A stretch of 39,258 nucleotides of DNA from a virus: positions 1 through 39,258 of the IMG/VR virus record IMGVR_UViG_3300002144_000797; one strand, written 5' to 3'. The notes beneath the pieces are model-generated. The model saw only the letters and a program-made list of their open reading frames with translations. It was not told where the DNA came from and searched no databases. Within the stretch, counting starts at the first letter, position 1; each line of letters begins with the position of its first letter. Below are positions 10,442 to 36,811 of this stretch, in pieces. The position numbers and the translations under genes are program-made.

Positions 10442-10444
10442 ATT

Positions 10445-11116: not shown

Positions 11117-11118
11117 AA

Positions 11119-13542: not shown

Positions 13543-13651
13543 CTAATAACTTTTTTACTTCAATATTATCTTCACAAAAAACCAATTTTATAGTTCGAGC
13601 ACCTCTACTATGAAGGTGCTCTAAATTGGCAATTAATTTATCTAATTCCAT
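13508..13651 (-). CDS. Small protein, 47 residues, with nested hairpin in its gene
   Basis: An intact frame starts MELDKLIANLEHLHSRG, continues ARTIKLVFCEDNIEV and ends RYPRKG. The ATG overlaps the stop of the zinc-ribbon gene (TAATG) and the tail overlaps the GT2 gene by 35 nt, typical of real genes here. Its coding sequence contains a two-part inverted repeat (13582-13629). No family recognised. Confidence 0.55.
   Translation of the reverse strand: MELDKLIANLEHLHSRGARTIKLVFCEDNIEVKKLLDEIKLRYPRKG
13582..13629 (-). repeat. Two-part inverted repeat inside the 47-residue gene
   Basis: An outer 7-bp stem (13582-13588 with 13623-13629, CCAATTT/AAATTGG) encloses an inner perfect 8-bp stem (13597-13604 with 13614-13621, GAGCACCT/AGGTGCTC) with a 9-nt loop. 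Between the stems lie 8 nt on one side and 1 nt on the other. It could be an RNA structure attenuating or terminating transcription inside the glycan operon. It is a structural observation only. Confidence 0.55.
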
Positions 13652-14106
13652 TAATCTTTTTCAAGTACACCAATGTACTCAAGAGCCCCAATATAATCAA
13701 GTTCCGGATAATTTTTCATATTATCCATGTCCATTCGATATTCATAAGGACTACCATCTTTTTTCTTATATTTTTCTTTATCCTCATCCGTAACAACTGG
13801 AACTGATTTTACAGCTGACCAATGCCAATTATCTTTATTTGAGCCGTTAGCAAATATCATTCCTAAATTAGGAAGATTTACTGTTGAAGGCATCCATATA
13901 CCTCCATCTTTATCTTCATAAAATAAATCTTTATAAAGTTCTGGAAGGATTTCTGATTGTTCTTTTATAAAATCAGAATCTTTCACCATTAGTGAATTTG
14001 AAATAAACCCACACCCCATACATTGGTAGTTAGTTATTGATTCATTTACTTCTTGAGAGTAACAAGCGTCACTCCCACATTTTTTACATATTGTTAATTT
14101 ATCCAT
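13651..14106 (-). CDS. Zinc-ribbon phage protein, 151 residues
   Basis: Two CxxC pairs (CKKC at 7-10 and CMGC at 29-32) form a zinc ribbon at the N-terminus. The remainder has WHWSAVKSVPVVTDEDKEKY and an LDYIGALEYIGVL ending, like small phage hypotheticals. It lies between the glycosyltransferase genes with 1-nt overlaps on both sides. Nucleic-acid binding is possible from the ribbon; its link to glycan synthesis is positional only. Confidence 0.65.
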   Translation of the reverse strand: MDKLTICKKCGSDACYSQEVNESITNYQCMGCGFISNSLMVKDSDFIKEQSEILPELYKDLFYEDKDGGIWMPSTVNLPNLGMIFANGSNKDNWHWSAVKSVPVVTDEDKEKYKKKDGSPYEYRMDMDNMKNYPELDYIGALEYIGVLEKD

Positions 14107-15398
14107 TATTTCTTTAATTTTGGTAATTCTAATTTTTTAGAAGTGTTTAAGTTTGGTAAGTTTAAAGTTACTTGTTTAGCAAATTTAGGAATATTCTTAT
14201 CCAGATACGAAGATAATACCCCATCCATCGCATCCCAACTAAAATTAGATTTAGAATAATGAGCTTGTCGTTTAGCAGCTTCTAAATGTTTTTTATAATT
14301 CTTTAGTATACTTTTAAAACCATTACCAACATCTGATGGGTTTGGAGAGAACCATTGACTCTCTGGGAGTATCATATTAGGAACAACCGCACTACTATCT
14401 ACATTTTTTAAACTTCCATTAAGTACTAAACTAAATTTAGTATTTATAAAATCCATATGACCACTCCACCCACTAACCATAATTGGTTTTTGAGATAGAC
14501 TAAATTCAAGTAGTGGACGGCCAAAACCTTCACCTTTAGTCAAACTAACCATTGCTTTAATTTTAGTATGGTTATACAATTCATTCATCTCAGTGTTTGA
14601 AAGTTCACCATGAATCATGTAAACGTTAGGTAAATTTTTTCCTTTTACTGTTTTTTGGATTTGGTAGTATCGTTTTTGGAGTAATTTTTTATCCATATAT
14701 GATGCTCCTGAACCTGATACTTTCATAATAAGTGCAGGGGGGTTTGGGGTATTTTTAAATGTTTCTAAGAAAGATTTAATAGTATATCCCACATTTTTCC
14801 TATCTTCACCTAATCCTCCTTGCATCCAATGCCCTACAAATAAATAACAAAAAGACTCTGGGATTGAACTTAAATCAAATGTAGATTTTACAGGTTTGTA
14901 GATGTCTAAATTAGCCCCTTCAAATAATACTTCAATGGGTTTTTGTACTTCGACAGTACCTACTACTTTACCGTGTTCCTGTTTTTGGAATCTTGAATTT
15001 AAAAATGCTTCTTTAGAGTGTTTTGAAGAAACAAAATTAATATCCATTCTATTAATTCCTTCTACCCAAGTAGCATCTACAATAGTAGTTTCCATTCCGG
15101 CTGTCATACCAATATTATACTTTCCTACAGGTTGAAATTCATTTGGAACTGTTATTTGCATCCAAATATCAGGTTGGATCTTTTGATCTTCTTGGTTATG
15201 AAGATGATTTAATAAAAAACCCCACTCTTCCTTATGGTCATTAATAAATTCCCAAGGTGTGTTTCCCCATCTTTGAGATAATAATTTTACTTCGTACTTA
15301 TCACTTTTAATTATAGATTTGATAACATCACGACTACGTGCTCCATATCCTGAGTATGTATCAAAAGGAGCGGATATATAAAATGTTGGTTTGTTCAT
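14106..15398 (-). CDS. GT4-type glycosyltransferase, 430 residues
   Basis: The N-terminal domain has ISAPFDTYSGYGARSRDVI, with the Gly-rich loop that binds acceptor, and NIGMTAGMETT. The C-terminal domain has IKAMVSLTKGEGFGRPLLEF at about 282-301 and SGWSGHMDFI, the E-x7-E region and donor loop of GT4 enzymes. The length is typical for the family. It overlaps both neighbours by 1 nt. It is probably the second gene of the glycan operon and may extend the chain begun by the 476-residue enzyme. Confidence 0.85.
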   Translation of the reverse strand: MNKPTFYISAPFDTYSGYGARSRDVIKSIIKSDKYEVKLLSQRWGNTPWEFINDHKEEWGFLLNHLHNQEDQKIQPDIWMQITVPNEFQPVGKYNIGMTAGMETTIVDATWVEGINRMDINFVSSKHSKEAFLNSRFQKQEHGKVVGTVEVQKPIEVLFEGANLDIYKPVKSTFDLSSIPESFCYLFVGHWMQGGLGEDRKNVGYTIKSFLETFKNTPNPPALIMKVSGSGASYMDKKLLQKRYYQIQKTVKGKNLPNVYMIHGELSNTEMNELYNHTKIKAMVSLTKGEGFGRPLLEFSLSQKPIMVSGWSGHMDFINTKFSLVLNGSLKNVDSSAVVPNMILPESQWFSPNPSDVGNGFKSILKNYKKHLEAAKRQAHYSKSNFSWDAMDGVLSSYLDKNIPKFAKQVTLNLPNLNTSKKLELPKLKK

Positions 15399-16828
15399 TA
15401 GTATACTAATTTATGATTTAAAACGTCTGGTGTAAATTCTTTAGGGTTGAAAATTTCGTATCTATGACGAGGTTTCCAAGTTGAGAATAAAGTATCTACA
15501 CTATTAATAACTCTATCTCCCATAATTTTGGAAGTAAACCCAGCTTCATCTCCTGTAGCCCATTTAAGTCCTTCTTTACCACATTCCTGTCTTTTATCTT
15601 GAGGCATAAGATATAACTTCATAATTTGTTCAGCTGCATCTTCAGCATTACATCTATCATCCCAAATATAGGGTGTTTTAGGAGATCCTTGTATAGATCT
15701 ATTAGTAGGGAAAACTGGGAATGCCCATTTACCACACTTTTTATATTTACCCGTATGGTTAGAAGGTATATTTTCATCAGGTGTAAACCAGTTTCCATCT
15801 TCATCCTCAAATCGTAATTGATCTTGCATACCACCAGTTACATTAGCTATAATAGGATTACCTACTAATAAAGCTTCGGTTAATGCTAATCCCCACCCTT
15901 CATTAGAGGATAATAAAATTTGAGCATCACTACTATTATACAGTAGATTCATATAATTAATAGGTAAACGATTTGTTGAAAAAATTATACCTTCGTAATC
16001 ATCCCCAAATAAATAATCTCTTACGGCTATTAAATCTGTACCGTTTTGATCTGATGGTTGGGTGTGAAGTACAAGAGCACATTTATCTGCTTCTTCTTTT
16101 GATAACTTATCAATAAAACACTTCCAAGCAAACATTGTATCTGGAATTGATTTACGTCTAATGTTTCGTGAGTTAAATAATAAGACAAAATCTTTTTCTT
16201 TACCACCTAACATTTGATTTCTAAAATCAACAAGTTCTTTATTATCCTTCTCAATTGGGAAGTAGTATTTTGAACTAACACCATGAGGTATATAGTCAAT
16301 TACTTTACCATCTGCTTTTTCTCCTAAAACCAACTTATTAATGTTAGTTGTTTGTTTAGAAATACCTAACAACGCATCACAAGACTCATAAAATTCTTTA
16401 TTATATGATGGTGCGGGGTAATTATCCCAAATGTTAAGATAAATAATTGGGGTGGATTTGCGGATTTCATTTTCAATTGTAAACAACCATTCAAAATATC
16501 TAGGATCCGTAATAAGCATTATAGCATCCGGCTTCTCAATATTTAATAAATTCCTAAGTAAAACAGGATCACCATAACCACTAATTGGGTATATGGTAAC
16601 AGAAGAATCTTCAATTCCTGTTTCTTTATTAGTATCTTGACTTAAATCAAAACGCTTACCAGCGTCCGGATGTTTCATTGCTCCCCCTAGGTTTACCCAA
16701 TTATAATGGTGACAAGTATTGATTATAATATCTTTACCTACACCACCTACTCCTGATGGCAAACGGATATCATCTGTTATCAAAAGAATTTTTTTCCTTT
16801 GATTTTGGGGTATATAACCTTCTTTCAT
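15398..16828 (-). CDS. GT4-type glycosyltransferase, 476 residues
   Basis: KKILLITDDIRLPSGVGGVG at about 12-31 is the GT-B N-terminal Gly loop; DYIPHGVSSKYYFP and LLFNSRNIRRKSIPDTMFAW form the domain linker and donor strand, and LLSSNEGWGLALTEALLVGN at about 306-325 holds the E-x7-E motif. It overlaps the next gene by 1 nt. Similar genes occur in several large phages. Substrates are not readable. Confidence 0.85.
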   Translation of the reverse strand: MKEGYIPQNQRKKILLITDDIRLPSGVGGVGKDIIINTCHHYNWVNLGGAMKHPDAGKRFDLSQDTNKETGIEDSSVTIYPISGYGDPVLLRNLLNIEKPDAIMLITDPRYFEWLFTIENEIRKSTPIIYLNIWDNYPAPSYNKEFYESCDALLGISKQTTNINKLVLGEKADGKVIDYIPHGVSSKYYFPIEKDNKELVDFRNQMLGGKEKDFVLLFNSRNIRRKSIPDTMFAWKCFIDKLSKEEADKCALVLHTQPSDQNGTDLIAVRDYLFGDDYEGIIFSTNRLPINYMNLLYNSSDAQILLSSNEGWGLALTEALLVGNPIIANVTGGMQDQLRFEDEDGNWFTPDENIPSNHTGKYKKCGKWAFPVFPTNRSIQGSPKTPYIWDDRCNAEDAAEQIMKLYLMPQDKRQECGKEGLKWATGDEAGFTSKIMGDRVINSVDTLFSTWKPRHRYEIFNPKEFTPDVLNHKLVY

Positions 16829-18012: not shown

Positions 18013-18615
18013 TTATTTTTTCTTTAAAATAGTTAATCCGGGCCATTCAGGTTTTGTTTCCCATATCTCCCATTCCGGGTGTGAATATACGAACTCTGTT
18101 ATGGCAATCCAAATTCCTTTTGTATCACCTTCCCAACCACCATGTCTAAAAGAAATAGTATCGTGTAACATAATATATTTGTTACATTTTCTATGGTATA
18201 TTTCTAATTCTTGTTTTACTTGATTGTAGTCGTGGGCCGTATCAACAAATATTAAATCAAAATTTGGGATGGAGTTATAAAAATAAGGATCTAAATCATC
18301 AGCTATTCTAAAATTAAAATCTATTTTTCTTTCTTTAGCTCCTGACCTTACAATATCTAAATCAGCCCCCCATATTGAAGGTTCATCAATATCAACCCCT
18401 AAATAAGTTTTAGGTAAATGGTAATCTTTATTTTCTTCCCTCAAACCATAAAGAAAAGCCCAAGTACCTGTAATCCATCTAACTCCTAATTCTAAGACTG
18501 AATCACACTCACGAGTATACTTTACTATTGTTGGAAAAAATTCGTTTATATCTGAAGTAACACTTCTTAGGTAGTGGTACTTTTCATCAATAATTCTACG
18601 GTTTTGGGGTTCCAT
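18013..18615 (-). CDS. Class I SAM methyltransferase-like protein, 200 residues
   Basis: SVLELGVRWITGTWAF at about 39-54 replaces the typical glycine loop with GVRWITG, followed by YLGVDIDEP at about 71-79 and DLIFVDTAHDYNQVKQEL at about 119-136, the Methyltransf_24 layout. It ends 3 nt before the nuclease gene's TTG. Its coding region contains a chance-like copy of the promoter core at 18084-18094. The target is unknown; it lies between the glycan cluster and replication genes. Confidence 0.7.
   Translation of the reverse strand: MEPQNRRIIDEKYHYLRSVTSDINEFFPTIVKYTRECDSVLELGVRWITGTWAFLYGLREENKDYHLPKTYLGVDIDEPSIWGADLDIVRSGAKERKIDFNFRIADDLDPYFYNSIPNFDLIFVDTAHDYNQVKQELEIYHRKCNKYIMLHDTISFRHGGWEGDTKGIWIAITEFVYSHPEWEIWETKPEWPGLTILKKK

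Positions 18616-21351: not shown

Positions 21352-21352
<1 letters not shown>
21098..21352 (-). CDS. Hypothetical protein after GroEL, 84 residues
   Basis: The start overlaps the last base of the GroEL stop, so it is coupled to it. Sequence features: RQAPGDSWVLVGDKVVH, a helix LTEALEAWFAKTGQ and a Pro/Lys-rich tail. It is soluble; no domain recognised. Possibly a small accessory protein of the chaperonin unit. Confidence 0.6.
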
Positions 21353-23319
<1,967 letters not shown>

Positions 23320-23323
<4 letters not shown>

Positions 23324-25681: not shown

Positions 25682-27313
25682 TTATAATTTTTTATATATT
25701 TTACTACCTGCCACCAAATAATCAATTGTACCCTTTATAAGATGGAAAAATGCTTGTTCGGGGGTGTTTATAATAGGTTCACCATGACCATTAAATGAAG
25801 TGTTTAACATAACAGGAATACCTGATATTTTATTATATTCATTTAATATATTCCAGAATACTGGATTATTATGTTTGTAAACTATTTGGGGACGACCTGT
25901 ATTATCTACTTTATGAACTACAGCCGGTATTCTATCTGCCCACTCATCACGTACAGTATAACACATAGTCATAAATTCTGCAGTATGGTGTGATCTAGGA
26001 ACATCAAATACTACATTAGCATACTCACTCATTATAAAAGGAGCAAAAGGCATAATTTCATGTCGTTCTAATCTTGTATTAAGTATTTCATGAGTTTCAG
26101 CATCCGTAGGTCTTACCATTACAGAGCGAGCACCTAAAGCTCTAGGACCAAATTCAAATCTACCATTAAATAAAGCTATAATATTACCTTCATGGATTAA
26201 ACTACCAACTTTAGAGTAATCTAAATCTTGGGCTATTACTTTAAGAGTAACAGCATGGTCATCAATTTCTTTTTGGGAATATTCTAAACCTAAAAAGGCA
26301 TCTTTTAACTTTTTTACACCTTTCCAATCTCCAACGTCTATTGAACTTTTTATCGCAGCCCCAAAACTAATACCACTATCCCCCATAGCAGGACATACAA
26401 ACATATTATCATACAATCCAGATTCATTAATCACCTGATTTAATTTTACATTTGCAAATACTCCCCCAGCTACTGATAAATTACGATATTCTGGGTAGAG
26501 AGAAGAAATATCAGTAAGATATTCCATAAAAACATCTTCTGTGTATTTTTGGAGATTAAAAGCAAAATCTTGTCTATTTTTCTGACCCTCAAACCATCCT
26601 TCTTCAGCTAACCTAGAATAAACAAATTCTACTGCCATCCCATTTTCAGGATGGGTGAATTGTAAATTACCTCTATAAGTTAAACAACTTTTAAATGAAT
26701 TATATAAATACTCATTATATTCTCCATGACCAGCCATTCCCATAATCTTCCCCTCATCTTTAGTACCTTTCCAACCATATTGGAAACATGCATAAAACCA
26801 AAGATTAGCTATAGAACCTTGCTCCCTTATAGGAATAGAATGAACTTTGTTCATTTTCCCATTTTCAGCTAGCCAAATAGTTCCATATTCTTTTTCATAT
26901 GAACCCCCATCTGAAGTAAGTACTAAGGTTTTATCTGTAAATCCTGAATTATAATAAGTACTATAAGCATGAGCTTCATGATGTTCAACCCATTGAATTT
27001 TATCCTTAAGTTTAATTAATCTTTCCCTAAAGATTGTCATTTCATCTTCAGGTTCATTAACGTCTCTATTTTTACATTGTACTAAATATAGTAAAGTTGG
27101 ATCTGAAATTGAAATAATATCAGCATCTTCTAAAAGAATACCGGTTTTTTCTTCTATTACTTTTAATGAGTGAATTGGGGCATCCCACCAACTATTTCCT
27201 GCTTTTTTTCGAGTAATTCTCTCGTCTTCGATAGCATATTTTACCTCTCCATCAACAATTAGAGTTGTTGATTGTCCGTGTGCTCCGAAAAATAGTCCGT
27301 ATATTTTAGCCAT
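25682..27313 (-). CDS. NodU/CmcH-family O-carbamoyltransferase, 543 residues
   Basis: HHEAHA at 111-116 (metal-binding His residues of the Kae1-like domain), AGGVFANVKLN at 282-292, GDSG at 311-314 and GRFEFGPRALGARS at 384-397 are family hallmarks; the C-terminal YrdC-like domain follows (about 375-543). These enzymes move a carbamoyl group from carbamoyl phosphate to a hydroxyl of a sugar or nucleotide. Here it could decorate glycans made by the cluster or a DNA base. It lies 2 nt from the polymerase part and the unknown gene. Substrate is inferred. Confidence 0.92.
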   Translation of the reverse strand: MAKIYGLFFGAHGQSTTLIVDGEVKYAIEDERITRKKAGNSWWDAPIHSLKVIEEKTGILLEDADIISISDPTLLYLVQCKNRDVNEPEDEMTIFRERLIKLKDKIQWVEHHEAHAYSTYYNSGFTDKTLVLTSDGGSYEKEYGTIWLAENGKMNKVHSIPIREQGSIANLWFYACFQYGWKGTKDEGKIMGMAGHGEYNEYLYNSFKSCLTYRGNLQFTHPENGMAVEFVYSRLAEEGWFEGQKNRQDFAFNLQKYTEDVFMEYLTDISSLYPEYRNLSVAGGVFANVKLNQVINESGLYDNMFVCPAMGDSGISFGAAIKSSIDVGDWKGVKKLKDAFLGLEYSQKEIDDHAVTLKVIAQDLDYSKVGSLIHEGNIIALFNGRFEFGPRALGARSVMVRPTDAETHEILNTRLERHEIMPFAPFIMSEYANVVFDVPRSHHTAEFMTMCYTVRDEWADRIPAVVHKVDNTGRPQIVYKHNNPVFWNILNEYNKISGIPVMLNTSFNGHGEPIINTPEQAFFHLIKGTIDYLVAGSKIYKKL

Positions 27314-27315
27314 AA

Positions 27316-28248
27316 TTAAAAGTTAAAAAAAATATCTTTATAAGGGTTAAGATTCAGTACCCAACCGAGATCTGAGTAGAACCCTTCTAATTTATTTAGT
27401 AGTATTGAATCAAAAATTTTATCTCTATCTGCATATTCCTCAATGAATATACGTATCTTTTCTGGCAGGTCAAAGTCTAAAAATGAAATAGCGTTAATTT
27501 GGTATGGGTTTGGTTTTAAGTAAATCCATTTTATTTTTTCACCTTGGGTTATCATTTTATGTTGATTACTTAAACCCCAAAATTTAAGTAAATCATTATA
27601 AATTATTGTAGATCTAACTGAGGCTGGAGCGCCTTTAGCTATGATCGAAAACATTTCCCCAGCACGTGCCTTACGTTCAGTGTATTTATTTAGGGTTTTA
27701 ACTGATGTTGGATTACCTAACTGTGTTAGCGGTATACTACCGTCTAATATCTGCTGTCTAAATTCTTTAACACGAGCATCGATTTCAGGTTGTTGTGCGC
27801 CTTTTAACACGTCTACTAATACTTTATGGAAAAACTTACCTAGTACTGGTGGGAAATTTGCCTTCTTAAATTCAAGACCTTTTACATCAAGTGTTTCTTT
27901 TTTAATACCTTCTTGCTTAGTAATCCACTGAGCATATCTTCTAGTAGCCCTGAAATAAGCCGCACGGATAACTGCCTCAGTCTTCATTTCTAACCTATGA
28001 GCACCCTTAGCATTAAAGCAATTTACAGCTAATTCACCATAAGAGTCAGTAATAATATCCTGATATTTTAAAGCTATACTTTCTAATTTATCATCTTTTT
28101 CTTCACTAGGCATTTCCTCGAAATTAGGATATAAATGTCTAAGTAAAGGTTCAGCATGAATATAAATTGAATCTGTATCAGAATATGCTACATAGTTTGT
28201 ATCTTCAAGATCACAGATCCACCAAGGAGTATCTTCTATATGCTTCAT
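27316..28248 (-). CDS. 43B: DNA polymerase B, C-terminal part (gp43B-like), palm motif C and thumb
   Basis: YSDTDSIY at 22-29 is polymerase motif C with two catalytic Asp; ATRRYAQWI at 101-109 matches the KKRY region; DVKGLEFKKANFP at 121-133 and the rest match the thumb. The C-terminal end, YKDIFFNF, resembles the terminal clamp-binding peptide of T4 gp43 (DMFDF). The start overlaps the stop of the first part as ATGA. The enzyme needs both parts: motifs A and B are in the other gene. Confidence 0.9.
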   Translation of the reverse strand: MKHIEDTPWWICDLEDTNYVAYSDTDSIYIHAEPLLRHLYPNFEEMPSEEKDDKLESIALKYQDIITDSYGELAVNCFNAKGAHRLEMKTEAVIRAAYFRATRRYAQWITKQEGIKKETLDVKGLEFKKANFPPVLGKFFHKVLVDVLKGAQQPEIDARVKEFRQQILDGSIPLTQLGNPTSVKTLNKYTERKARAGEMFSIIAKGAPASVRSTIIYNDLLKFWGLSNQHKMITQGEKIKWIYLKPNPYQINAISFLDFDLPEKIRIFIEEYADRDKIFDSILLNKLEGFYSDLGWVLNLNPYKDIFFNF

Positions 28249-29927
28249 AATTCTATATTCTCTTTTATAACCTTATTTATATGGCGATTTGCTGTTAGGG
28301 CAGATTCCTGAATAATACGTTGACCACTCAATGTAATTGCTTCAGATAAAATAACATTACCATAACGGAAACTACCAAGAGCAGTTGCACCATACAAACT
28401 ATTTAGCAAAATCTTCATAGTATATTGCTTCATATGAAAACCAGCACCTAATTCCTTATTACCCTCTTTAAATGCCTTTTTCTTTAAATTATTATACATT
28501 ACACGCTCATCAAACCACTTCTTTAAAATAGTAGATAATACTGATTCACGATTAGTATTAAACATAACACCATTGGCTGAAATAGATAATTCATTTTGTT
28601 GGATCATTGATATTAATCTTCTAACACTAACTCTAGTTCTATTTCGTTTAGCATTTTCAATCATTAATTCCTCCTCAGGATCTCTCTTTAATAAATCATT
28701 TAACCCTAAACGATTATTTCTATCATCGGCATCTATAATCCTACCAACCATTGTTTCTTTACCAATATTAATAGTCATAATAATTGATGGGTATAGTGAA
28801 GTTAAATCTTCATCAAATACATAGTTGTAAATACCCGCTTTAGGGCAAAATAAATAACCGCCAGCATAGTTCTTTTTAGATAAGGGGTTACGTTCTTTAG
28901 CAGGTGGTACAATACCCTCACTTAATAAATAAGCTGAAATTGCTCCATCTTGAGTTTTAGTATTAGCATATACTTCACTGTAATTGTGTTTACCTTTATG
29001 AGCTAAGTTTTTAACAAGTGACAAGTATTCTAACTTTTCATCTAATAATTTTAAAATCTCAACATCTACAAAGTTATATTGAATAAATTTATGTATGTCA
29101 GCTTCAAATAAATCATCAAGATTACCTTCATATTCTATTTTCTTCATTCCTACATACTTCTCACCAATAGCATCTAATTTAAATGATGGTTCATCTGCCC
29201 AACTAAACTTCTTATGCAAACGCATGTAATCAAGTGATTCTACACCTGCTATTTGAATATATTGATCTTTATACCAAGGAGTTTCACGAACATAGCCAAT
29301 AGGAGATAAATAACGAGCTACATCTTCACCTAAAACCTTACACATTCTATAGTAAAGATAGGGAACATCAAAATAATCACTATTCCACCCTACTATAATA
29401 TCTGGGTCTATTTCTCTAAATTTTTCTAGGAATTTTAGTAATAACTCATCTTCAGTAGCACAGGGTATAATCTCCTTATTTTTAGCTTTAGTTCTAGAAA
29501 GTTGGGATTTTTTATCTAAAATTAATATTCCCCACTCATCAACTTGCTTATCATACCAAGCAATAGATGTTACTTTTTTAGGAGCAGATTTAATATACTC
29601 TTCAGTAAGAGCATCTCCCCATTCGGTTTCAATATCAAAAAATATTTCTCGGTGAGTTGTAGAAGGTTCATCATCAATTCCATATCGTTCTACTAAGAAC
29701 TTTTGATATGGTGTCATATCGTGGAAATGAAGTTTATTATTTTCTTTATCCCATTTGCGAACTTTTTTTAGAGGCTCACCTCCTAATCCCAAATGTGTAG
29801 CATCAGCTTCACCACACTCTACATAAGCTTGGTTTACCCATTCTACTTTGCTGTAGCCTGTATCTTCCCAGAGGTGGATTAGATAATTATTACTACCTCG
29901 TTGCTGTGCAAATGCTTTTTTATACAT
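28245..29927 (-). CDS. 43A: DNA polymerase B, N-terminal part (gp43A-like), exonuclease plus motifs A and B
   Basis: The 560-residue protein holds the 3'-5' exonuclease motifs FFDIETEWGD (D98, E100), VGWNSDYFD (179-187) and YNFVDVEIL (284-292), motif A DEDLTSLYPSII (D374) and motif B KILLNSLYGATALGSF (505-520). It stops just after the SGQRIIQE helix, before motif C. Together with the second part the length (870) is near T4 gp43 (898). Reinitiation at the ATGA overlap would supply both pieces. It is the first gene after the hairpin at 29961-29982. Confidence 0.93.
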   Translation of the reverse strand: MYKKAFAQQRGSNNYLIHLWEDTGYSKVEWVNQAYVECGEADATHLGLGGEPLKKVRKWDKENNKLHFHDMTPYQKFLVERYGIDDEPSTTHREIFFDIETEWGDALTEEYIKSAPKKVTSIAWYDKQVDEWGILILDKKSQLSRTKAKNKEIIPCATEDELLLKFLEKFREIDPDIIVGWNSDYFDVPYLYYRMCKVLGEDVARYLSPIGYVRETPWYKDQYIQIAGVESLDYMRLHKKFSWADEPSFKLDAIGEKYVGMKKIEYEGNLDDLFEADIHKFIQYNFVDVEILKLLDEKLEYLSLVKNLAHKGKHNYSEVYANTKTQDGAISAYLLSEGIVPPAKERNPLSKKNYAGGYLFCPKAGIYNYVFDEDLTSLYPSIIMTINIGKETMVGRIIDADDRNNRLGLNDLLKRDPEEELMIENAKRNRTRVSVRRLISMIQQNELSISANGVMFNTNRESVLSTILKKWFDERVMYNNLKKKAFKEGNKELGAGFHMKQYTMKILLNSLYGATALGSFRYGNVILSEAITLSGQRIIQESALTANRHINKVIKENIEL

Positions 29928-30006: not shown

Positions 30007-30516
30007 TTATTTTAATAAAGTTTGTGCTATTTCTAATTCTGTGAAAAACTGAGATAAATCAGGTCTAAAATAGTTAATTGATTTCATTACTTTATTATCT
30101 GAGGTACGATATACAACATACTTACCATTTGATTCTTCATAATGGCATGGTTCACCTTGTTGTTCAGAGCGTAATTTAACCGTTTCTTCTGCCTCAGCAA
30201 CTGTATTACAAATTTTAGACATATTAGATGCTTGCACTTCAGCATAACCATCTAGCATTTTATCCTTTAAACCAAATACTAAAGCTCCATTACCTAAGCC
30301 TACATAGGTAATATCAAGTAGAGCATCAAATATTTCAATAATATTTTTTTCTTTAACTGCAACTTTTAATTCATCCAACTCTTCTTGGATAAAGTTAATT
30401 ACAAAATCAGCATCTTTAGGGTCTATTGTTGGAGTAGTTCGGTTTTGATAACTTTTCCCCATAACTTCATTAAACTCTTCTACTTCATCTACGAATGGTA
30501 CTTTTTTATTACTCAT
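30007..30516 (-). CDS. MazG-like/all-alpha NTP pyrophosphohydrolase, 169 residues
   Basis: NFIQEELDELKVAVKEKNII at about 41-60 and EIFDALLDITYVGLG at 61-75 give the EExxE...ExxD metal-binding residues of the MazG/PRA-PH superfamily; AEVQASNMSK follows as in this group. Members hydrolyse nucleoside triphosphates to monophosphates plus PPi and may cleanse or redirect dNTP pools. It follows FolE by 12 nt, a fitting place for a nucleotide-pool enzyme in a phage making a modified base. Confidence 0.8.
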   Translation of the reverse strand: MSNKKVPFVDEVEEFNEVMGKSYQNRTTPTIDPKDADFVINFIQEELDELKVAVKEKNIIEIFDALLDITYVGLGNGALVFGLKDKMLDGYAEVQASNMSKICNTVAEAEETVKLRSEQQGEPCHYEESNGKYVVYRTSDNKVMKSINYFRPDLSQFFTELEIAQTLLK

Positions 30517-30528
30517 AACTTTATTTAT

Positions 30529-31224
30529 TTAAATATTATGTCCTCCGTTATTAATCTTCAGACTGTCAAAAAATTCTTTTCTTGCTAAATTATTATTTTC
30601 TCTAAATACACCATTAGCTTTGGTAGTAACCATTGCTGCTCCTTGATGTTTAACTCCACGACATGATACACAATTGTGAGTTCCTACAATAGTAACAATA
30701 ACACCCTTATTACCTTCAGTAATTTTATCTACGGCATTATGGATAGCTGATGTTAGTTGTTCTTGAATAGCTCCCCTACGACCAAATAGCTCTACAATTC
30801 GGTTTAGTTTAGATAATCCAATTACTTGACCTTCATCTCCAGCAATATAACCAATATGAACTACACCTCCAATTGTTTGGTGATGGTGAGAACACATACT
30901 AGTAAGTGGGATGTTTCTTTCAATAATAATACCATCATATCCATCTGAGGGGAATGATGTAATAGGTGACATTGCTGTATAACGTCCAGCCCATAAGTCA
31001 TTTACATATGCTTTTGCTACACGACGAGGTGTTTCCATTGAGTTTGGATCATTTCTCCAATCACATTTTAAAGCATCAAGAAACTTACCATAAGCCTCTT
31101 CTGCTTCATCAATCATTGATAGTTTTTCATCACTGTTAAGGGGGAAACCTTCAGCAACACCGTTTGCGAAACCAGTTTGTACCACTTCTAATTCTTCGTG
31201 GATTTTTCTACGTTTGTTTTCCAT
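30529..31224 (-). CDS. folE: GTP cyclohydrolase I (FolE), first step of preQ0 synthesis
   Basis: The protein has the FolE zinc site Cys111-x2-His114 (MCSHHHQ) with Cys188 (NCVSCRG), IGLSKLNRIVELFGRR at 135-150 and the QEQLT helix. FolE converts GTP to dihydroneopterin triphosphate, the substrate of QueD. The 231-residue length is normal. It is set apart from the other pathway genes by its own promoter-like element 25 nt upstream, and followed by the MazG-like gene. Confidence 0.95.
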   Translation of the reverse strand: MENKRRKIHEELEVVQTGFANGVAEGFPLNSDEKLSMIDEAEEAYGKFLDALKCDWRNDPNSMETPRRVAKAYVNDLWAGRYTAMSPITSFPSDGYDGIIIERNIPLTSMCSHHHQTIGGVVHIGYIAGDEGQVIGLSKLNRIVELFGRRGAIQEQLTSAIHNAVDKITEGNKGVIVTIVGTHNCVSCRGVKHQGAAMVTTKANGVFRENNNLARKEFFDSLKINNGGHNI

Positions 31225-31248
31225 TAATTATAACTTTTTATTTGATGT

Positions 31249-31259
31249 AATATACGAAC
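31249..31259 (-). promoter_or_regulatory. Promoter-like element before folE
   Basis: Minus strand GTTCGTATATTACATCAAATAA, 25 nt upstream of the FolE ATG and only a few bases after the Hpt stop (31265-31267). The preceding CTATAGATAG (31261-31270) forms a short hairpin that overlaps the Hpt stop codon. Confidence 0.65.
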
Positions 31260-31264
31260 CCTAT

Positions 31265-31768
31265 CTATAGAGCCCAAATTGAATTTAAATTTCTGTTAAG
31301 TCCCTTTTCATCATCACACCCCATTCCAACAATCCATTCATCTCCAATTGTAAAAGCATGATATGATTTTTGTTTTGGGATTGGTGAAGTATCTCTGGTT
31401 ATTAAAGATACTATAGAAATTGAAGATGGTTTTTTAACTTCTAAGTATTCAATTACAGCTTTCATAGTATTCCCAGTATCATATATATCATCTACAATGT
31501 AAACATGTTTACCTTTAATACGTGTTTCTAAGTCCTTAGTGATCTGTATATCGCCTTGCTTGCGATTTACATATGATTTAACGCGCATAAAATCACATTC
31601 CACGTCAATTGGCATAGCTCGTACTAAATCGCTGTAAAACGCGAAACAACCATTAAGCAATCCAACCATTACAATAGGTGTTTTATCACCTCTATGATCA
31701 TCTGATATTTGTTTACCTATAATTTTTGTTTGGATATCTATATCCTTGACATTAATTAGTTCTCTCAT
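31265..31768 (-). CDS. hpt: Hypoxanthine/guanine phosphoribosyltransferase-like, 167 residues
   Basis: VYIVDDIYDTGNTM at about 89-102 is the PRPP-binding loop, LLNGCFAFYSDLVRAM precedes it, and DEWIVGMGCDDEKGLNRN follows as in Hpt enzymes. It salvages hypoxanthine or guanine to IMP or GMP. I start at the ATG at 31766-31768 (MRELINVKD), because the 25 residues upstream in the same frame overlap a separate tiny gene and look unlike the family. Next to QueE and FolE it may feed or recover purines for modified-base synthesis. Confidence 0.88.
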   Translation of the reverse strand: MRELINVKDIDIQTKIIGKQISDDHRGDKTPIVMVGLLNGCFAFYSDLVRAMPIDVECDFMRVKSYVNRKQGDIQITKDLETRIKGKHVYIVDDIYDTGNTMKAVIEYLEVKKPSSISIVSLITRDTSPIPKQKSYHAFTIGDEWIVGMGCDDEKGLNRNLNSIWAL

Positions 31769-31893
31769 CTGTCTTCTAATATTTTTCTTAATTCGTCTAT
31801 AAGAGCCAGAACTTCGTCCGGCTCCATAGTTATAGCACAGCACGTTGAAACATTTTCCTCAATTTGAGTTAATAGTTCTAGTGCTTTATCCAT
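31765..31893 (-). CDS. Tiny gene between queE and hpt, 42 residues
   Basis: The frame starts MDKALELLTQIEENVSTCCA and ends DELRKILEDR, mostly helix. Its ATG overlaps the QueE stop (TAATG) and its stop overlaps the Hpt start by 4 nt (ATGA). This coupling on both sides supports it as real. No function known. Confidence 0.6.
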   Translation of the reverse strand: MDKALELLTQIEENVSTCCAITMEPDEVLALIDELRKILEDR

Positions 31894-32669
31894 TACACGT
31901 ATCTCTTTTTATCATATGCGATTATATGATCTCTCCCAGTCATATTGTAACCTTTCTCAGCACACATTTCAAATACAAGTGGATACATTCTAATTAATTC
32001 ATCTCTAGAATCTCCAGCAGGCATTACAAATGTTTTATCTTTAGGAATATCCATTTCAACTCTAAACTCTTCAATTTCAACCAACCCATCTTCAGTTCCG
32101 TCCCATACTGGTTTGTAGTGGTAATCGGCATGGTAAGCTAATGTTTGACGAATCGCATCGTAATTAAGTCTAAGTTTATTATGTTGCTTAATCATTCTCT
32201 CATCTGTAATAGCACCTCCAGGTGTCATAACACCCAATACTGGAATTGTATTGCTAAATTTAGGACTAAGTGAAATAAGACCTATTGGGAAATCGGTTTC
32301 TAGGAAATGAGATCCTTCGGTTTCAATTGTAATTAATATACCTCTTTCATTTGCAAAATTAGTTAATTCATTTACAATTGTAGGATGCATTGTAGGACTT
32401 CCTCCGGTTAACATCATTTCCTTAATATGAGGATTTTCATCATACATTTTAATAACATCATTAAATGTATAACCTCCTTTTTCAGGATGTATTGACGTTT
32501 GCCAAGAATCACACCACCCACCTTCACCGAAATAACATCTGTGGGTACATCCTGTAGTTCTTACTGCTATAGTTGGACGACCAAAACGACTACCCTCTGA
32601 TTGAACACATCTATATAACTCTAATATTGGAAGTACTTTATCGTAATCTTCAATTCTTTTTATTGCCAT
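31893..32669 (-). CDS. queE: 7-carboxy-7-deazaguanine synthase (QueE), radical SAM
   Basis: The radical-SAM signature is C41-x3-C45-x7-C53 (GCTHRCYFGEGGWCDSW), wider than the common CX3CX2C, and is preceded by QSEGSRFGRP, the substrate-site start of QueE. MMLTGGSPTMHP near 85-96 is the SAM-binding region. QueE turns the QueD product into 7-carboxy-7-deazaguanine. The length (258) is slightly longer than the typical 210-240. Neighbours queD and the thioredoxin gene are just upstream. Confidence 0.9.
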   Translation of the reverse strand: MAIKRIEDYDKVLPILELYRCVQSEGSRFGRPTIAVRTTGCTHRCYFGEGGWCDSWQTSIHPEKGGYTFNDVIKMYDENPHIKEMMLTGGSPTMHPTIVNELTNFANERGILITIETEGSHFLETDFPIGLISLSPKFSNTIPVLGVMTPGGAITDERMIKQHNKLRLNYDAIRQTLAYHADYHYKPVWDGTEDGLVEIEEFRVEMDIPKDKTFVMPAGDSRDELIRMYPLVFEMCAEKGYNMTGRDHIIAYDKKRYV

Positions 32670-32682
32670 AACTATTTTTTAT

Positions 32683-33150
32683 TTAATCTTCTACATAATA
32701 TGCAGCATTTTTACTATGCTCCATAAATTTAACTTTAGTTACTCTAACTCTACCATCTGTTTCTTCCTGTACGAATGGGTTTAGCTTGTCAAAAATATAC
32801 TTAGCAAAACTTTCAGCACCTGTAGCTGGTATTACTCTAATTTGAGCAGCGCCTGCACTATCCATTTCTAAAAATGCGTTTTTAAAAGGATCATCTTCAG
32901 CTACTATCATAGTATGGTCAAATGTATAATCCATCCATTCTTTAGGTTGCATACCATCAATTAGAGTTTTAGCGCGTTTCATACCTCCAAAATCCCAAAC
33001 CCAATTACGATCATCTAATTCACCTTCAAAATAGACTTTAAATGAAATACCATAACCGTGTACAAATCTACAGTGAGTTGTCTCTGCTCTCCATTGACGG
33101 AATACTGTTGAAAACCCGTCAAATACTTTACTTGATTGAAATTTACCCAT
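32683..33150 (-). CDS. queD: 6-carboxy-tetrahydropterin synthase (QueD-type)
   Basis: THCRFVHGYG at 25-34 includes the catalytic Cys27 but has HGYG where the canonical enzyme has HGH, and no His is seen at the F-x-A-x-H position (FSTVFRQWRAE). DFGGMK, FDHT (77-80), PATGAES (108-114) and MEHS (143-146) complete the family signature. This is the divergent QueD branch seen in some bacteria and phages. It makes 6-carboxy-tetrahydropterin. It overlaps the thioredoxin gene by 8 nt. Confidence 0.88.
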   Translation of the reverse strand: MGKFQSSKVFDGFSTVFRQWRAETTHCRFVHGYGISFKVYFEGELDDRNWVWDFGGMKRAKTLIDGMQPKEWMDYTFDHTMIVAEDDPFKNAFLEMDSAGAAQIRVIPATGAESFAKYIFDKLNPFVQEETDGRVRVTKVKFMEHSKNAAYYVED

Positions 33151-33403
33151 TATAAAAATCTGTTATTTGTTGTTTTGTTAAAGCTCCTGTTCTGCGGCCT
33201 ATTTCATTTCCTTTTAAGTCAGTTAAAATTAAAGTTGGTATACTTTTAATTCCATATTTTTGGACTAAAGACACATCATAGTCACAGTTAATTTTATTAA
33301 CCTTCATTCCTTCACTAATTAAACCATCCATAACGGGTCCTAGCATTTTGCAAGGTGCGCACCAAGGGGCTGAGAAGTACATAATTCCTCTTTCGTTGTT
33401 CAT
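33143..33403 (-). CDS. Thioredoxin, 86 residues
   Basis: WCAPC at 14-18 is the redox active site, and the SIPT cis-proline (Pro56) follows. The fold is short by about 20 residues at the N-terminus compared with E. coli thioredoxin (108 residues), as in many phage thioredoxins. It could reduce a phage or host enzyme, for example ribonucleotide reductase, or keep the pathway's cysteine enzymes reduced. Overlaps QueD by 8 nt. Confidence 0.9.
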   Translation of the reverse strand: MNNERGIMYFSAPWCAPCKMLGPVMDGLISEGMKVNKINCDYDVSLVQKYGIKSIPTLILTDLKGNEIGRRTGALTKQQITDFYNG

Positions 33404-33413
33404 AATTTTATTT

Positions 33414-33638
33414 TTATACTAATTCTTCTATAATTCCTATTACTTCACTTAATATAAGTAAAATTGTTGCGGTAACCAAACTAAAGGGGATAAAACAATA
33501 ACCTAATATTCTAACTCCTGATTTAATGAATGAAATAATTTTGTGCCATTTTGGATCGGGCATATGTTTTGGGGTTTTTACTTCATACCCCCCTGAAAAA
33601 TACGTACCTCGTCTTGCTTCTGTTATTCCGTCGCTCAT
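33414..33638 (-). CDS. Small membrane protein, 74 residues
   Basis: A hydrophobic segment at about 41-70 follows a polar, Gly/Lys-rich N-terminus (MSDGITEARRGTYFSGGYE). One long or two short membrane helices are possible. It stands between queC and the thioredoxin gene with gaps of 4 and 10 nt. No family recognised. Confidence 0.55.
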   Translation of the reverse strand: MSDGITEARRGTYFSGGYEVKTPKHMPDPKWHKIISFIKSGVRILGYCFIPFSLVTATILLILSEVIGIIEELV

Positions 33639-33642
33639 AATA

Positions 33643-34554
33643 TTATTTTATATTTAATTGTTCTTTTACGTATTCAGAAAGTACTTGTTCTACATAGATT
33701 CTAGCAGTTTCATAATCAACTGGTCCTGTTTCGTCTGCATATTCTGCTGGATCAGGTCTTCCTAATTTAATAAATGCTTCTACTCTTTCAACTGATGATG
33801 CTGATTTATAGTCTGAGTACCATTTTGATGTTTTTTCTGCTTTAGAATAACGTCCTAATATTGATGGGTCTGTTATAACCGTTTTGGTATCTGAATCCCA
33901 ATGGATTGGTTTATAAGAAGTCATAGTACGTTTATAAACTTCATCAAAATCTAATCCTAATTCTTTACATAATACCTCACCATCTTGAAGAATAGTAAAT
34001 TTATCTCCTAATAAATAAGGTGTCCAGTAATGTACTCTTTCAGCTTCCCAATTACCTAATCTAAAAGCCTCATCATCTGCATCTCTAAATTCCTGTCTGC
34101 AGTCCGGATAAATTGAATGATCACCTGCGTGGATACCTAAAGCAATATCTGTGTTTTCTTCTGTCCTATTTGCTACTGATAGAGCAACGGCTTGGGTAAT
34201 AGAAGCAAATATTTTATTCCTATTAGGAACAACTGTTGCTTTCATATTATCTTCTGCGTAGTGTCCTTCAGGGACATCGGCTCCTCCTGTTACTAAAGCC
34301 GAATCAAGTAAATCAACTAACCCATTTAATTGGATCTGTTTATATGTTACCTTATGACCATTTTCAGATAAATAATTAATTAATGATTGGGCTCTTTCTA
34401 ATTCAACTCTATGTTTTTGACCATAGTCAAATGATAAAGCTGTTACAGTTTCATACTCATTTAGTGCCTTAAGTAATAACGTTGAGCTATCCATACCCCC
34501 TGAGAGTGATACTACTACGTGTTTACTTTTGTTTAAATCTAATTCTAATTGCAT
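33643..34554 (-). CDS. queC: QueC-like 7-cyano-7-deazaguanine synthase lacking zinc cysteines
   Basis: SGGMDSS at 18-24 is the PP-loop ATP site; PEGHYAEDNMK, VVPNRN, GIHAGDHSIYPDCRQEF and VERVEAF are QueC hallmarks. The canonical CYxG...CGxCxxC zinc site is changed: aligned positions are Ser213, Asp248, Ser251 and Ser254, and about 25 extra residues (214-247) sit between. The length is 303 against about 230. QueC makes preQ0 from the QueE product with ATP and ammonia. Activity without zinc is uncertain. Confidence 0.9.
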   Translation of the reverse strand: MQLELDLNKSKHVVVSLSGGMDSSTLLLKALNEYETVTALSFDYGQKHRVELERAQSLINYLSENGHKVTYKQIQLNGLVDLLDSALVTGGADVPEGHYAEDNMKATVVPNRNKIFASITQAVALSVANRTEENTDIALGIHAGDHSIYPDCRQEFRDADDEAFRLGNWEAERVHYWTPYLLGDKFTILQDGEVLCKELGLDFDEVYKRTMTSYKPIHWDSDTKTVITDPSILGRYSKAEKTSKWYSDYKSASSVERVEAFIKLGRPDPAEYADETGPVDYETARIYVEQVLSEYVKEQLNIK

Positions 34555-34605
34555 TTTTTATATAATTTTATTTGCCAGGTATTAATAGGATATAGGCGAA
34601 TCCTT

Positions 34606-34821
34606 TTATCTTACTAAACTATAAATAGGGTCAGGTCTTTCTACTGATATAATGTCTGAACCTATCTTACATTTTCCACCCTGTTGTAGGATTTTTCTTA
34701 CAGTAATTTCTTCGTTTTCACTCCAAGATTCACTTAATGTAATAAGTTCTTCTTTAGTAGTGGGTTCACCATTTAATTTTATTTTTTCTAACCCTCTTAT
34801 TGTTTGTTTTTTTAATGCCAT
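34606..34821 (-). CDS. Hypothetical protein, 71 residues
   Basis: The sequence has ALKKQTIRGLEKIKLNGEP, LITLSESWSENEEITVRKIL and SVERPDPIYSL. Basic at the N-terminus and acidic in the middle; no membrane segment. It is in the run of small genes between the membrane protein and queC. Function unknown. Confidence 0.6.
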   Translation of the reverse strand: MALKKQTIRGLEKIKLNGEPTTKEELITLSESWSENEEITVRKILQQGGKCKIGSDIISVERPDPIYSLVR

Positions 34822-34832
34822 AATTTATATTT

Positions 34833-35138
34833 TTATAATAATGTTATTAGGATTGGTGTTACCTTATAACCAATAAATGCTCCTATTGCCGTGGGGATTG
34901 GAAATATAATAAATTTACCTAAGGAGGTAACATATTTAGGTCTATTAACAACCTTACCTAAAAAGAAGTAATATATAAGATATGCTAACAATACTGCAAT
35001 ATCTATTTTAAGAGTTAGTGCAACAATTACAACGGCTCCTAAGAATCCATAGATGAAGTTATATAAAACACCATCTAACCAAACTTCCTTTTTAGGAGCT
35101 TCTTTGTACTCCTTTACTACAGTTTTCACTGATTTCAT
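34833..35138 (-). CDS. Multi-pass membrane protein, 101 residues
   Basis: Three hydrophobic segments at about 26-44, 46-63 and 74-98 follow a Lys-rich N-terminus (MKSVKTVVKEYKEAPKKE). The 1-nt overlap with the 164-residue gene supports coupling. It could be a phage inner-membrane protein such as a holin or transporter accessory, but there is no specific motif. Confidence 0.6.
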   Translation of the reverse strand: MKSVKTVVKEYKEAPKKEVWLDGVLYNFIYGFLGAVVIVALTLKIDIAVLLAYLIYYFFLGKVVNRPKYVTSLGKFIIFPIPTAIGAFIGYKVTPILITLL

Positions 35139-35632
35139 TATTTTATGTTTAATTCTTTTTCTAATCTTTCGAATGATGGGTCTATCATTCTATCCCAGAA
35201 GTATTCTTCATCATCATCTTCTAGTGAATCATCTTCTAGTGTTATATATTGACCGGCATCTGTAATTTTTAATACTCCGATTGGACTATATGCTTCATCC
35301 CAATAACGTGCCGTGAATGTAACATCAGGATCTATAGCAACCAACTGACGATGCATTTCTTTTAGCATATCTGATGGGGGATACCAAGCTGATTCCATTG
35401 CAAATTGGAATTCATCATCAGCATCTATAAACACGTCATATTTGGAAATCCACTTTGAACCAATCCTATCAATTAGTAATTCTGCCTCAGCTCCAAAAGC
35501 ATCTATAATATGTGTTTGTCCTTCTTCTGCTGGGTATTTTCCATCTACACAGTCATCATACTTTTCTTGGAAGTACTTAATTGCTTCTTTCGATCCTTTG
35601 ATTGTAACGTCTGTTCTGTTTGTATTTGCCAT
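35138..35632 (-). CDS. Hypothetical phage protein, 164 residues
   Basis: The protein starts ANTNRTDVTIKGSKEAIKYF and contains GSKWISKYDVFIDADDEFQF, SAWYPPSDML and FTARYWDEAYSPIGVLKI, with an acidic C-terminus. The strand-rich layout with SKWxxSKYD is reminiscent of api92/ferredoxin-like phage proteins; I have no firm family. It follows the 61-residue gene by 1 nt. Confidence 0.6.
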   Translation of the reverse strand: MANTNRTDVTIKGSKEAIKYFQEKYDDCVDGKYPAEEGQTHIIDAFGAEAELLIDRIGSKWISKYDVFIDADDEFQFAMESAWYPPSDMLKEMHRQLVAIDPDVTFTARYWDEAYSPIGVLKITDAGQYITLEDDSLEDDDEEYFWDRMIDPSFERLEKELNIK

Positions 35633-35633
35633 T

Positions 35634-35819
35634 TTATTCTTCTATATAGTATTCAGTTCCACCATCTTTGTCTCGTGTGAATTCCATTTCATCATAAACT
35701 TCCTCCATTACCTCATCTTTAAGATCATCGTCATCTGAGTTATATCGTTCCAATTGCTCATCTGTTAATTCTACTACATAGAATCTATAATCTGTTTCTA
35801 CTCTAACTAATTTTGCCAT
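35634..35819 (-). CDS. Acidic small hypothetical protein, 61 residues
   Basis: Very acidic protein with KLVRVETDYRFYVVELTDE, a DDDDLKDEVMEEVYDEM stretch and a GGTEYYIEE ending. Its context AATAAGTTATG fits the genome's usual start. DNA-mimic or host-interaction proteins can be acidic like this, but this is only a guess. Confidence 0.6.
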   Translation of the reverse strand: MAKLVRVETDYRFYVVELTDEQLERYNSDDDDLKDEVMEEVYDEMEFTRDKDGGTEYYIEE

Positions 35820-35822
35820 AAC

Positions 35823-36020
35823 TTATTTAGTATATTTAAAGTACATTTCTAAAAAATCTTTTGGGTATAACATTACTTTACCACAATAAGTTTTAATATC
35901 TATATTCCTTGATTCAGGTTGAATATTCATAGCTGCTGAAGCTTTAAATACTTTCTCCCCCAATTCCATTCCTGCTGCTTTTCCTAAGTAATCAAATAGG
36001 CTTAATCTATTTTCTGTCAT
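35823..36020 (-). CDS. Hypothetical phage protein, 65 residues
   Basis: The protein reads MTENRLSLFDYLGKAAG, then ELGEKVFKASAAMNIQPES and KTYCGKVMLYPKDFLEMYF. From memory, proteins with LSLFDYLGKAAGxELG occur in several phages as hypotheticals. It lies 2 nt from the DpdA-like gene and 3 nt from the acidic gene. Confidence 0.65.
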   Translation of the reverse strand: MTENRLSLFDYLGKAAGMELGEKVFKASAAMNIQPESRNIDIKTYCGKVMLYPKDFLEMYFKYTK

Positions 36021-36022
36021 TT

Positions 36023-36811
36023 TTATATGTTATTTATTTGTTTAAATTTTGTTAAATTGTGGTCAAGTAAATTATAATCAATTTCACTACCTTCTATATA
36101 GAAAAAATCATTCATGTTTGCCTTTGGTTTTTTGTCTAATCCTGCATTTGAATAACGAATATTTTCTAACGAAGCCATTACTGGGTTTGATGTGTCTATT
36201 GATTCAATACATTCAAATCCGCGGTACCAACCAAATTCTTGTGGTACTGAGCAACCTAATAGATGAATTCTATCTGATTGGGTAATTACTTTTGTTTTAA
36301 GTAAAGCTGAAATTACTGATAATCGTCCTAGTGCTTTACCTAAATCTTTATTTGGGTGGGGAACAACATCATTGTAATAACTAGCACCATAAGAGAATGC
36401 TATTTTCTTATATCCTAAATCCTTATATGTTTTATAACAGGTAGATGCTTCATGTATCGTATTAGCTTGAACAACTACTACTTTTTCAACATTTTGAGGT
36501 AATTTGATTGAAGACCATTTGATAGCATTTCCGATAGAAGCATCTCTATCACACCAAACATCAGGAACAATAAATTCATTAGGCTTAATTTCTTCTATCC
36601 AATGTAACAAACGTTCATGGTTATAAGCCTCACCCAATTCATGTAAGGAATTATCCATTATAATATAACGACCTTCGGCTTTAGCTTTAAGAAAATAATC
36701 TAAATATGCTGGTTCCTCATCCATTAAATGAGGAAGACAATAATCATAATCATTAAATTTTTTACTATCTTCTAGTAAACATAGAGGGGTTTCGTGACTT
36801 ACTTTCATCAT
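36023..36811 (-). CDS. TGT/DpdA-like DNA transglycosylase, 262 residues
   Basis: The sequence follows the tRNA-guanine-transglycosylase superfamily as adapted in DpdA: MDNSLHELGE at about 52-61, VPDVWCDRD at 82-90, VVQANTIHE, FSYGASYY, IHLLGCSVPQEFGWYRG at about 182-198 and SIDTSNPVMASL at 204-215, whose Asp206 is a candidate nucleophile. DpdA exchanges guanine in DNA for a 7-deazaguanine. Together with FolE, QueD, QueE and QueC on the same strand it completes a DNA-modification set. I judge it a DpdA2-type member from motif order; a structural comparison would settle it. Confidence 0.8.
   Translation of the reverse strand: MMKVSHETPLCLLEDSKKFNDYDYCLPHLMDEEPAYLDYFLKAKAEGRYIIMDNSLHELGEAYNHERLLHWIEEIKPNEFIVPDVWCDRDASIGNAIKWSSIKLPQNVEKVVVVQANTIHEASTCYKTYKDLGYKKIAFSYGASYYNDVVPHPNKDLGKALGRLSVISALLKTKVITQSDRIHLLGCSVPQEFGWYRGFECIESIDTSNPVMASLENIRYSNAGLDKKPKANMNDFFYIEGSEIDYNLLDHNLTKFKQINNI

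Follow-up and report, generated by a model that had tools for sequence, protein, structure and literature searches.

A viral preQ0 gene cluster with a compact DpdA-like protein and a guanine-type phosphoribosyltransferase: a predicted DNA hypermodification module

Introduction

Why would a virus carry a pathway for the modified base 7-cyano-7-deazaguanine (preQ0)? The question is raised by IMG/VR virus record IMGVR_UViG_3300002144_000797, a marine virus fragment of 39,258 bases that we analysed at its full length (the window; GC content 27-34% in 2-kb steps). Homologues of FolE, QueD, QueE and QueC, the four enzymes of the preQ0 route, sit there in one minus-strand cluster, close to an open reading frame (ORF) for a 262-residue protein. 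Genes of this kind are known from marine Bacteroidetes viruses, where these 'queuosine genes' were left ambiguous between a role in tRNA and a role in DNA (PMC7198788). In the Campylobacter phages CP220 and CPt10, deoxyguanosine is reported to be 100% replaced by 2'-deoxy-7-amido-7-deazaguanosine (dADG) (PMC8306585).

Our reading, to which we give a probability of roughly 85%, is that the cluster is a phage DNA hypermodification module: preQ0 synthesis, exchange of the base into DNA by a DpdA-like enzyme, and recycling by a phosphoribosyltransferase (PRTase). The gene set, a predicted fold shared with tRNA-guanine transglycosylase (TGT) and DpdA, conserved active-site positions and conserved synteny carry this reading; the base exchange and its product would follow by analogy with known families. 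The system is ordinary in kind: a phage cluster for deazaguanine modification whose DpdA is of the CP220 type, from a family already annotated in Flavobacterium phage immuto (Immutovirus).

A compact transglycosylase-like protein

The protein that would bring preQ0 into DNA is encoded 1.47 kb from QueC. An earlier note on this DNA had placed a TGT/DpdA-like protein within 1.5 kb on the strength of the motifs DNSLHELGE, HLLGC and SIDTSNP, all of which are present.

36023..36811, minus strand: predicted compact DNA-guanine transglycosylase, DpdA-like and of the CP220/immuto type, 262 residues; predicted active-site residues D53, D84, Q115 and D206 (predicted fold, homology, invariant residues)

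The ORF is not a chance one, since it has relatives in IMG/VR (at least 174 in one scan; 80 kept, at 70-79% identity), differs from four of them most commonly at third codon positions and keeps its neighbours in order. Pfam, PHROGs and NCBIfam do not name the protein: Pfam gives DUF6610 below its cut-off (E 0.011), and the PHROG match, phrog_19058, is labelled 'unknown'. The assignment in the earlier note therefore had motifs alone behind it. Its AlphaFold2 model (pLDDT, the predicted local distance difference test, 94.9; 45 aligned sequences) has the TIM-barrel fold of the TGT type. Foldseek puts TGTs at the top (2pot, E 1.7e-7), and VIA-align gives Z scores of 16.5-17.4 over ~230 residues to TGTs and DpdA, with 17.4 to 1iq8 and 16.9 over 231 residues to 7ui4, a DpdA that inserts preQ0 into DNA. 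In each of these two PDB comparisons, all 50 among the matches listed are TGT or DpdA; comparison with DpdA structures had been proposed as a check, and its outcome favours the assignment. The 7ui4 protein also shares the HLLG...SID motif, although its chain is longer (436 residues) and identity is 14%.

D53, D84, Q115 and D206 are invariant in the 45 sequences and follow the order of the TGT active-site motifs. A profile alignment pairs VVQ (the Q115 region) with IIQG and SIDTSNP (the D206 region) with FDCVMPTR of E. coli TGT, weakly (E 0.008); D53 aligns to DSGAF of DpdA1, also weakly, the match to DpdA1 not being significant. We read from these a catalytic Asp pair and a substrate-binding Asp/Gln, a judgement made on weak alignments without residue-level structural superposition.

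In tblastn the protein matches the annotated DpdA of immuto (38% identity) and, over its full length, the DpdA-like proteins of CP220 and CPt10 (YP_009169190.1; 37%, E 1e-42 to 3e-42), which share the invariant residues. Weaker matches occur in Bacillus, Cellulophaga and Chryseobacterium phages, and a viral contig scan with the homologue of phage BSP7 gave no match. The phages with a homologue that we inspected have preQ0-pathway genes as well, either close to it or at another place in the stretch read. The CP220-type DpdA is presumably the subfamily called 'DpdA3'. Predicted fold and active-site motifs, homology to proteins of phages whose DNA is reported to be fully dADG-modified, and conserved linkage to preQ0 genes together uphold the DpdA assignment: as far as predicted fold and active-site motifs can show, the protein is confirmed as a compact member of the TGT/DpdA superfamily lacking the TGT zinc site. 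Such model-based structural support for this family is new within the literature searched.

A TGT fold would also suit a role in translation, in which the preQ0 genes raise queuosine in host tRNA and the 262-residue protein acts on tRNA, and tRNA queuosine is among the roles proposed for the genes that marine Bacteroidetes viruses carry (PMC7198788). We consider this very improbable. The zinc site of tRNA-TGTs (CxCxxC...H) is not found in the 262 residues, whose conserved cysteines are C125 and C187 only, and DpdA scores like TGT in the PDB comparison. Moreover, homologues of the protein occur in phages with modified DNA, and the window-clade records searched gave no QueF, which performs one step in bacterial synthesis of queuosine and would have to come from the host. 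For the viral 'queuosine genes', a linked DpdA-fold enzyme in such clusters points to a role in DNA.

PreQ0 genes with altered zinc sites

Pfam and PHROG matches agree with the positions and names first given for the four pathway genes:

30529..31224, minus strand: FolE GTP cyclohydrolase I (PF01227, E 3e-42)
31893..32669, minus strand: QueE-like radical SAM enzyme (phrog_2076, E 2e-43; TIGR03365, E 1e-12, below cut-off)
32683..33150, minus strand: QueD-like 6-carboxytetrahydropterin synthase (PTPS, E 6e-16; phrog_2389, E 2e-40; alignments)
33643..34554, minus strand: QueC-family enzyme, 303 residues, catalytic motifs present, Cys4 zinc motif lost (PF06508, E 1.3e-38; alignments; AlphaFold2 model)

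All four homologues are thus present, but a complete preQ0 route, as first claimed, leaves out of account that zinc-binding residues are missing from QueC and QueD. The QueC signature motifs SGGxDS, YxQxHxxE, VPxRN and YPDC (PMC13329287) can all be found in alignments of the window protein. The zinc motif C(x)8CxxCxxC cannot: its cysteines are replaced here and in most relatives, with Ser at the zinc positions in 79 of 83 distinct sequences (a count that agrees with a separate alignment, independent of the E. coli sequence). The QueC of immuto is zinc-less too, and the cysteines are retained in CP220, VpKK5, BSP7, CC_R7 and Youna2. An AlphaFold2 model (pLDDT 83.7) has the QueC structures 2pg3 and 3bl5 as its nearest neighbours, and we class the protein as a zinc-less QueC-family enzyme that probably works like QueC. 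That immuto-type phages carry QueF suggests that a zinc-less QueC still delivers preQ0.

QueD keeps the catalytic Cys (C27), one zinc His (H31) and the catalytic Asp-His (D78, H79) and Glu (E144), but the other two zinc His are changed, so that the canonical set (catalytic Cys plus three zinc His) is incomplete. At position H33, all 94 aligned sequences have Tyr. There is no clear counterpart of the first zinc His; MAFFT aligns that position with H26, an invariant residue adjoining C27 that may substitute for it. Within the literature searched, these zinc-less QueC and QueD enzymes are new, and a zinc-less QueC conserved across a phage lineage tests the view of zinc as required.

Conserved gene order and the expected base

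In the window, minus-strand transcription runs through ThyA, the 262-residue ORF, small ORFs, QueC, a 74-residue protein (p74), thioredoxin (Trx), QueD, QueE, hypoxanthine-guanine phosphoribosyltransferase (HGPRT or HPRT), FolE, a MazG-like hydrolase and family B DNA polymerase (PolB). The IMG/VR relatives repeat the order DpdA-QueC-p74-Trx-QueD-QueE-PRTase-FolE-MazG-PolB, with gaps and inserted cargo; in a sister clade around immuto it is QueD-QueE-PRTase-FolE-MazG-DpdA-formyltransferase-kinase-QueF. The immuto cluster has annotated DpdA, QueD, QueE, FolE, QueC and QueF genes. Like the window, immuto combines its DpdA with a zinc-less QueC, a similar QueD (71% identity), FolE, MazG and a guanine-type PRTase; unlike it, immuto has QueF, a formyltransferase and a P-loop kinase, a PRTase of the xanthine-guanine phosphoribosyltransferase (XGPRT) type, and QueC ~15 kb away. 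CP220 and CPt10 share QueC and QueD with the window, whereas their genes are scattered, their QueC zinc site is kept and a PRTase was not found.

As in known families, FolE, QueD, QueE and QueC would convert GTP to preQ0. The DpdA-like enzyme would then act on finished phage DNA, cutting the N-glycosidic bond of its guanines, holding the DNA on an Asp and inserting preQ0 to give 2'-deoxy-7-cyano-7-deazaguanosine (dPreQ0), which would block restriction enzymes. The exchange possibly extends to all guanines, by analogy with CP220. Eight window-type records of 73-170 kb, which may be incomplete, gave no match to QueF or the formyltransferase (Formyl_trans), and both are present in 3 of 3 immuto-type records. 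Because of this pattern, dPreQ0, the default product proposed earlier, is the parsimonious one for the window clade and our best guess; dADG is the main alternative.

The alternative keeps the module and changes the base: the altered QueC might stop at the amide intermediate, 7-amido-7-deazaguanine (ADG), or a hydratase encoded elsewhere might convert preQ0. CP220 and CPt10, which have a DpdA homologue, are phages with a reported 100% dADG, and QueC works through ADG, with the zinc site gone here and the catalytic motifs kept. However, the CP220 QueC retains its zinc cysteines, so dADG and zinc loss do not go together, and immuto, with the same zinc-less QueC, carries a QueF whose substrate is preQ0, which argues that such a QueC makes preQ0. 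We hold a base other than dPreQ0 to be unlikely. One QueC was found in each of the 12 records searched, CP220 included. A search for a tailoring enzyme in the QueE-PRTase gap of relatives turned up only varied cargo (by sequence reading, thermonuclease-like, thioesterase-like, DegT-like and carbamoyltransferase-like proteins).

A P-loop protein (AAA_28/thymidylate-kinase-like) lies near DpdA in immuto (locus L082, 13481-14005), adjoins DpdA in CP220 (L083, 12819-13361) and is annotated in CC_R7. No counterpart turned up in the window clade.

A NodU-like carbamoyltransferase (25682-27313, minus strand) adjoins a 223-residue protein of unknown function in the window. Loci L074 and L076 have 74% relatives, and the preQ0 cluster of locus L044 contains a distant carbamoyltransferase. 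As a base-tailoring enzyme it was dropped: matches occur in only 5 of 83 compared loci, three of them at 24-27%, and in differing places.

A phosphoribosyltransferase tied to the cluster

Between QueE and FolE lies the gene that would close the pathway into a loop:

31265..31768, minus strand (GTG start at 31843 also open): HGPRT, 167 residues from ATG (TIGR01203, E 4e-41; PDB HPRT, E 7e-28)

Its phosphoribosyl pyrophosphate (PRPP) motif, VDDIYDTGNT, is present, and TIGR01203 scores 140.6 bits against a cut-off of 150. The ATG at 31768, as in relatives, is the more likely start than the GTG. The earlier note had counted an Hpt-like enzyme as nucleotide-processing background. A PRTase it is, but a guanine-type one and a near-constant member of the cluster: 6-oxopurine-type PRTases occur in 107 of the 112 loci that have DpdA, QueE and FolE, 52 of the HPRT and 55 of the XGPRT type, never both with the profiles used. 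On a quick DpdA tree the type switches at least 7 times. In searches starting from the PRTases, which reached close relatives only, a preQ0 gene lies within the flank (up to 6 kb) in 61 of 61 HPRT and 76 of 78 XGPRT viral loci. Both kinds are rare in isolate phages, with tblastn matches in 17 and 40 of 50,697 records.

A second DpdA family offers a parallel. In Vibrio phage VpKK5 (Queuovirinae), FolE carries a fused XGPRT-like domain and adjoins DpdA1, and in a Pseudomonas phage the same fusion precedes an unannotated DpdA1-like ORF. The VpKK5 DpdA1 resembles the window protein in predicted role and in motif order (DSGAF...HGFG...DSSS), and its PRTase is likewise tied to FolE; it differs in that the sequence match is not significant and the type and arrangement of the PRTase are others. 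The Pseudomonas phage ORF, in Baskent_P4_1 (L237, 6747-7784), has DSGAF, VHGFG and SVDSSS; the record has no annotated gene there.

That one type replaces the other in the same cluster, and that fusion occurs elsewhere, speaks for selection on PRTase activity, although linkage itself could be inherited. If many guanines are exchanged after replication, free guanine must be released in bulk, and a pathway-tied PRTase is a direct, testable answer. One guanine would be freed per exchange, and the cluster HGPRT would most likely turn it into GMP and so GTP, refilling the pool of FolE. We therefore propose a dedicated recycling arm: guanine released by DpdA would pass through GMP, by way of a cluster-encoded or FolE-fused PRTase, back to preQ0 in a closed loop, alongside a zinc-free QueC/QueD pair that makes preQ0. 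To this combined proposal we give an even chance. Its genomic signature would be repeated HPRT/XGPRT replacement in one cluster together with a PRTase-FolE fusion beside another DpdA family. The PRTase pattern is new within the literature searched; the main paper on deazaguanine phages in that literature mentions neither salvage nor a phosphoribosyltransferase.

The PRTase might instead serve ordinary purine salvage, or make a deazaguanine nucleotide for incorporation by the polymerase. HGPRTs use PRPP and purine bases, a MazG-type hydrolase lies near the PRTase, and P-loop kinases stand near or beside DpdA in immuto and CP220. On the other hand, with a DpdA-fold enzyme there is no need for incorporation at the nucleotide level, and the PRTase-FolE fusion points to GTP supply. 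We find these other uses doubtful next to recycling.

Several points weigh against the module as we read it. The sequence-only likeness of the 262-residue family is weak (hhalign E 0.008 to TGT and 0.19 to DpdA), so its identity leans largely on predicted structure; a profile search of PDB sequences likewise matched DpdA 7ui4 weakly (E 0.056, and 0.36 with a larger alignment). Zinc is stated to be required for QueC function (PMC13329287), and with the QueC motif and two of three QueD ligands gone, yield or product may differ. A PRTase was not detected in CP220, BSP7, MA9V-3, CC_R7 or Youna2, so recycling is not obligatory for all such DpdA phages. Linkage alone can stem from shared ancestry, and the window, a virus fragment, leaves room for tailoring enzymes elsewhere.

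Other features of the window

Three further members of the cluster have the following positions:

33414..33638, minus strand: p74, a conserved small protein of 74 residues, function unknown, between QueC and thioredoxin (62 of 114 window-type loci have its cluster)
33143..33403, minus strand: thioredoxin, 86 residues (PF00085, E 8e-16; position conserved among relatives)
30007..30516, minus strand: MazG-like nucleotide pyrophosphohydrolase, a conserved neighbour of FolE (PF01503, E 3e-9; phrog_671, E 5e-25)

The 74-residue protein has no Pfam or PHROG match. The MazG-like hydrolase had been named correctly from the start; for an Nmad1 protein, also named, Pfam gave no match among the scanned ORFs, which were part of the total.

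The family B DNA polymerase is encoded by two minus-strand ORFs (27316-28248 and 28245-29927) that overlap by 4 bases, and relatives have two polymerase ORFs too. GroEL-like and GroES-like ORFs, as read from their sequences, lie at 21352-23323 (minus strand); GroEL and GroES are annotated near the DpdA cluster of immuto. A run of minus-strand ORFs at 7411-16828 and 18013-18615 reads like glycosyltransferases and methyltransferases, three of them giving weak-to-good methyltransferase matches. Finally, DUF285, a family described from Mycoplasma, matches three stretches of a protein at 2146-3288 (minus strand; E 5e-49), here in a phage.

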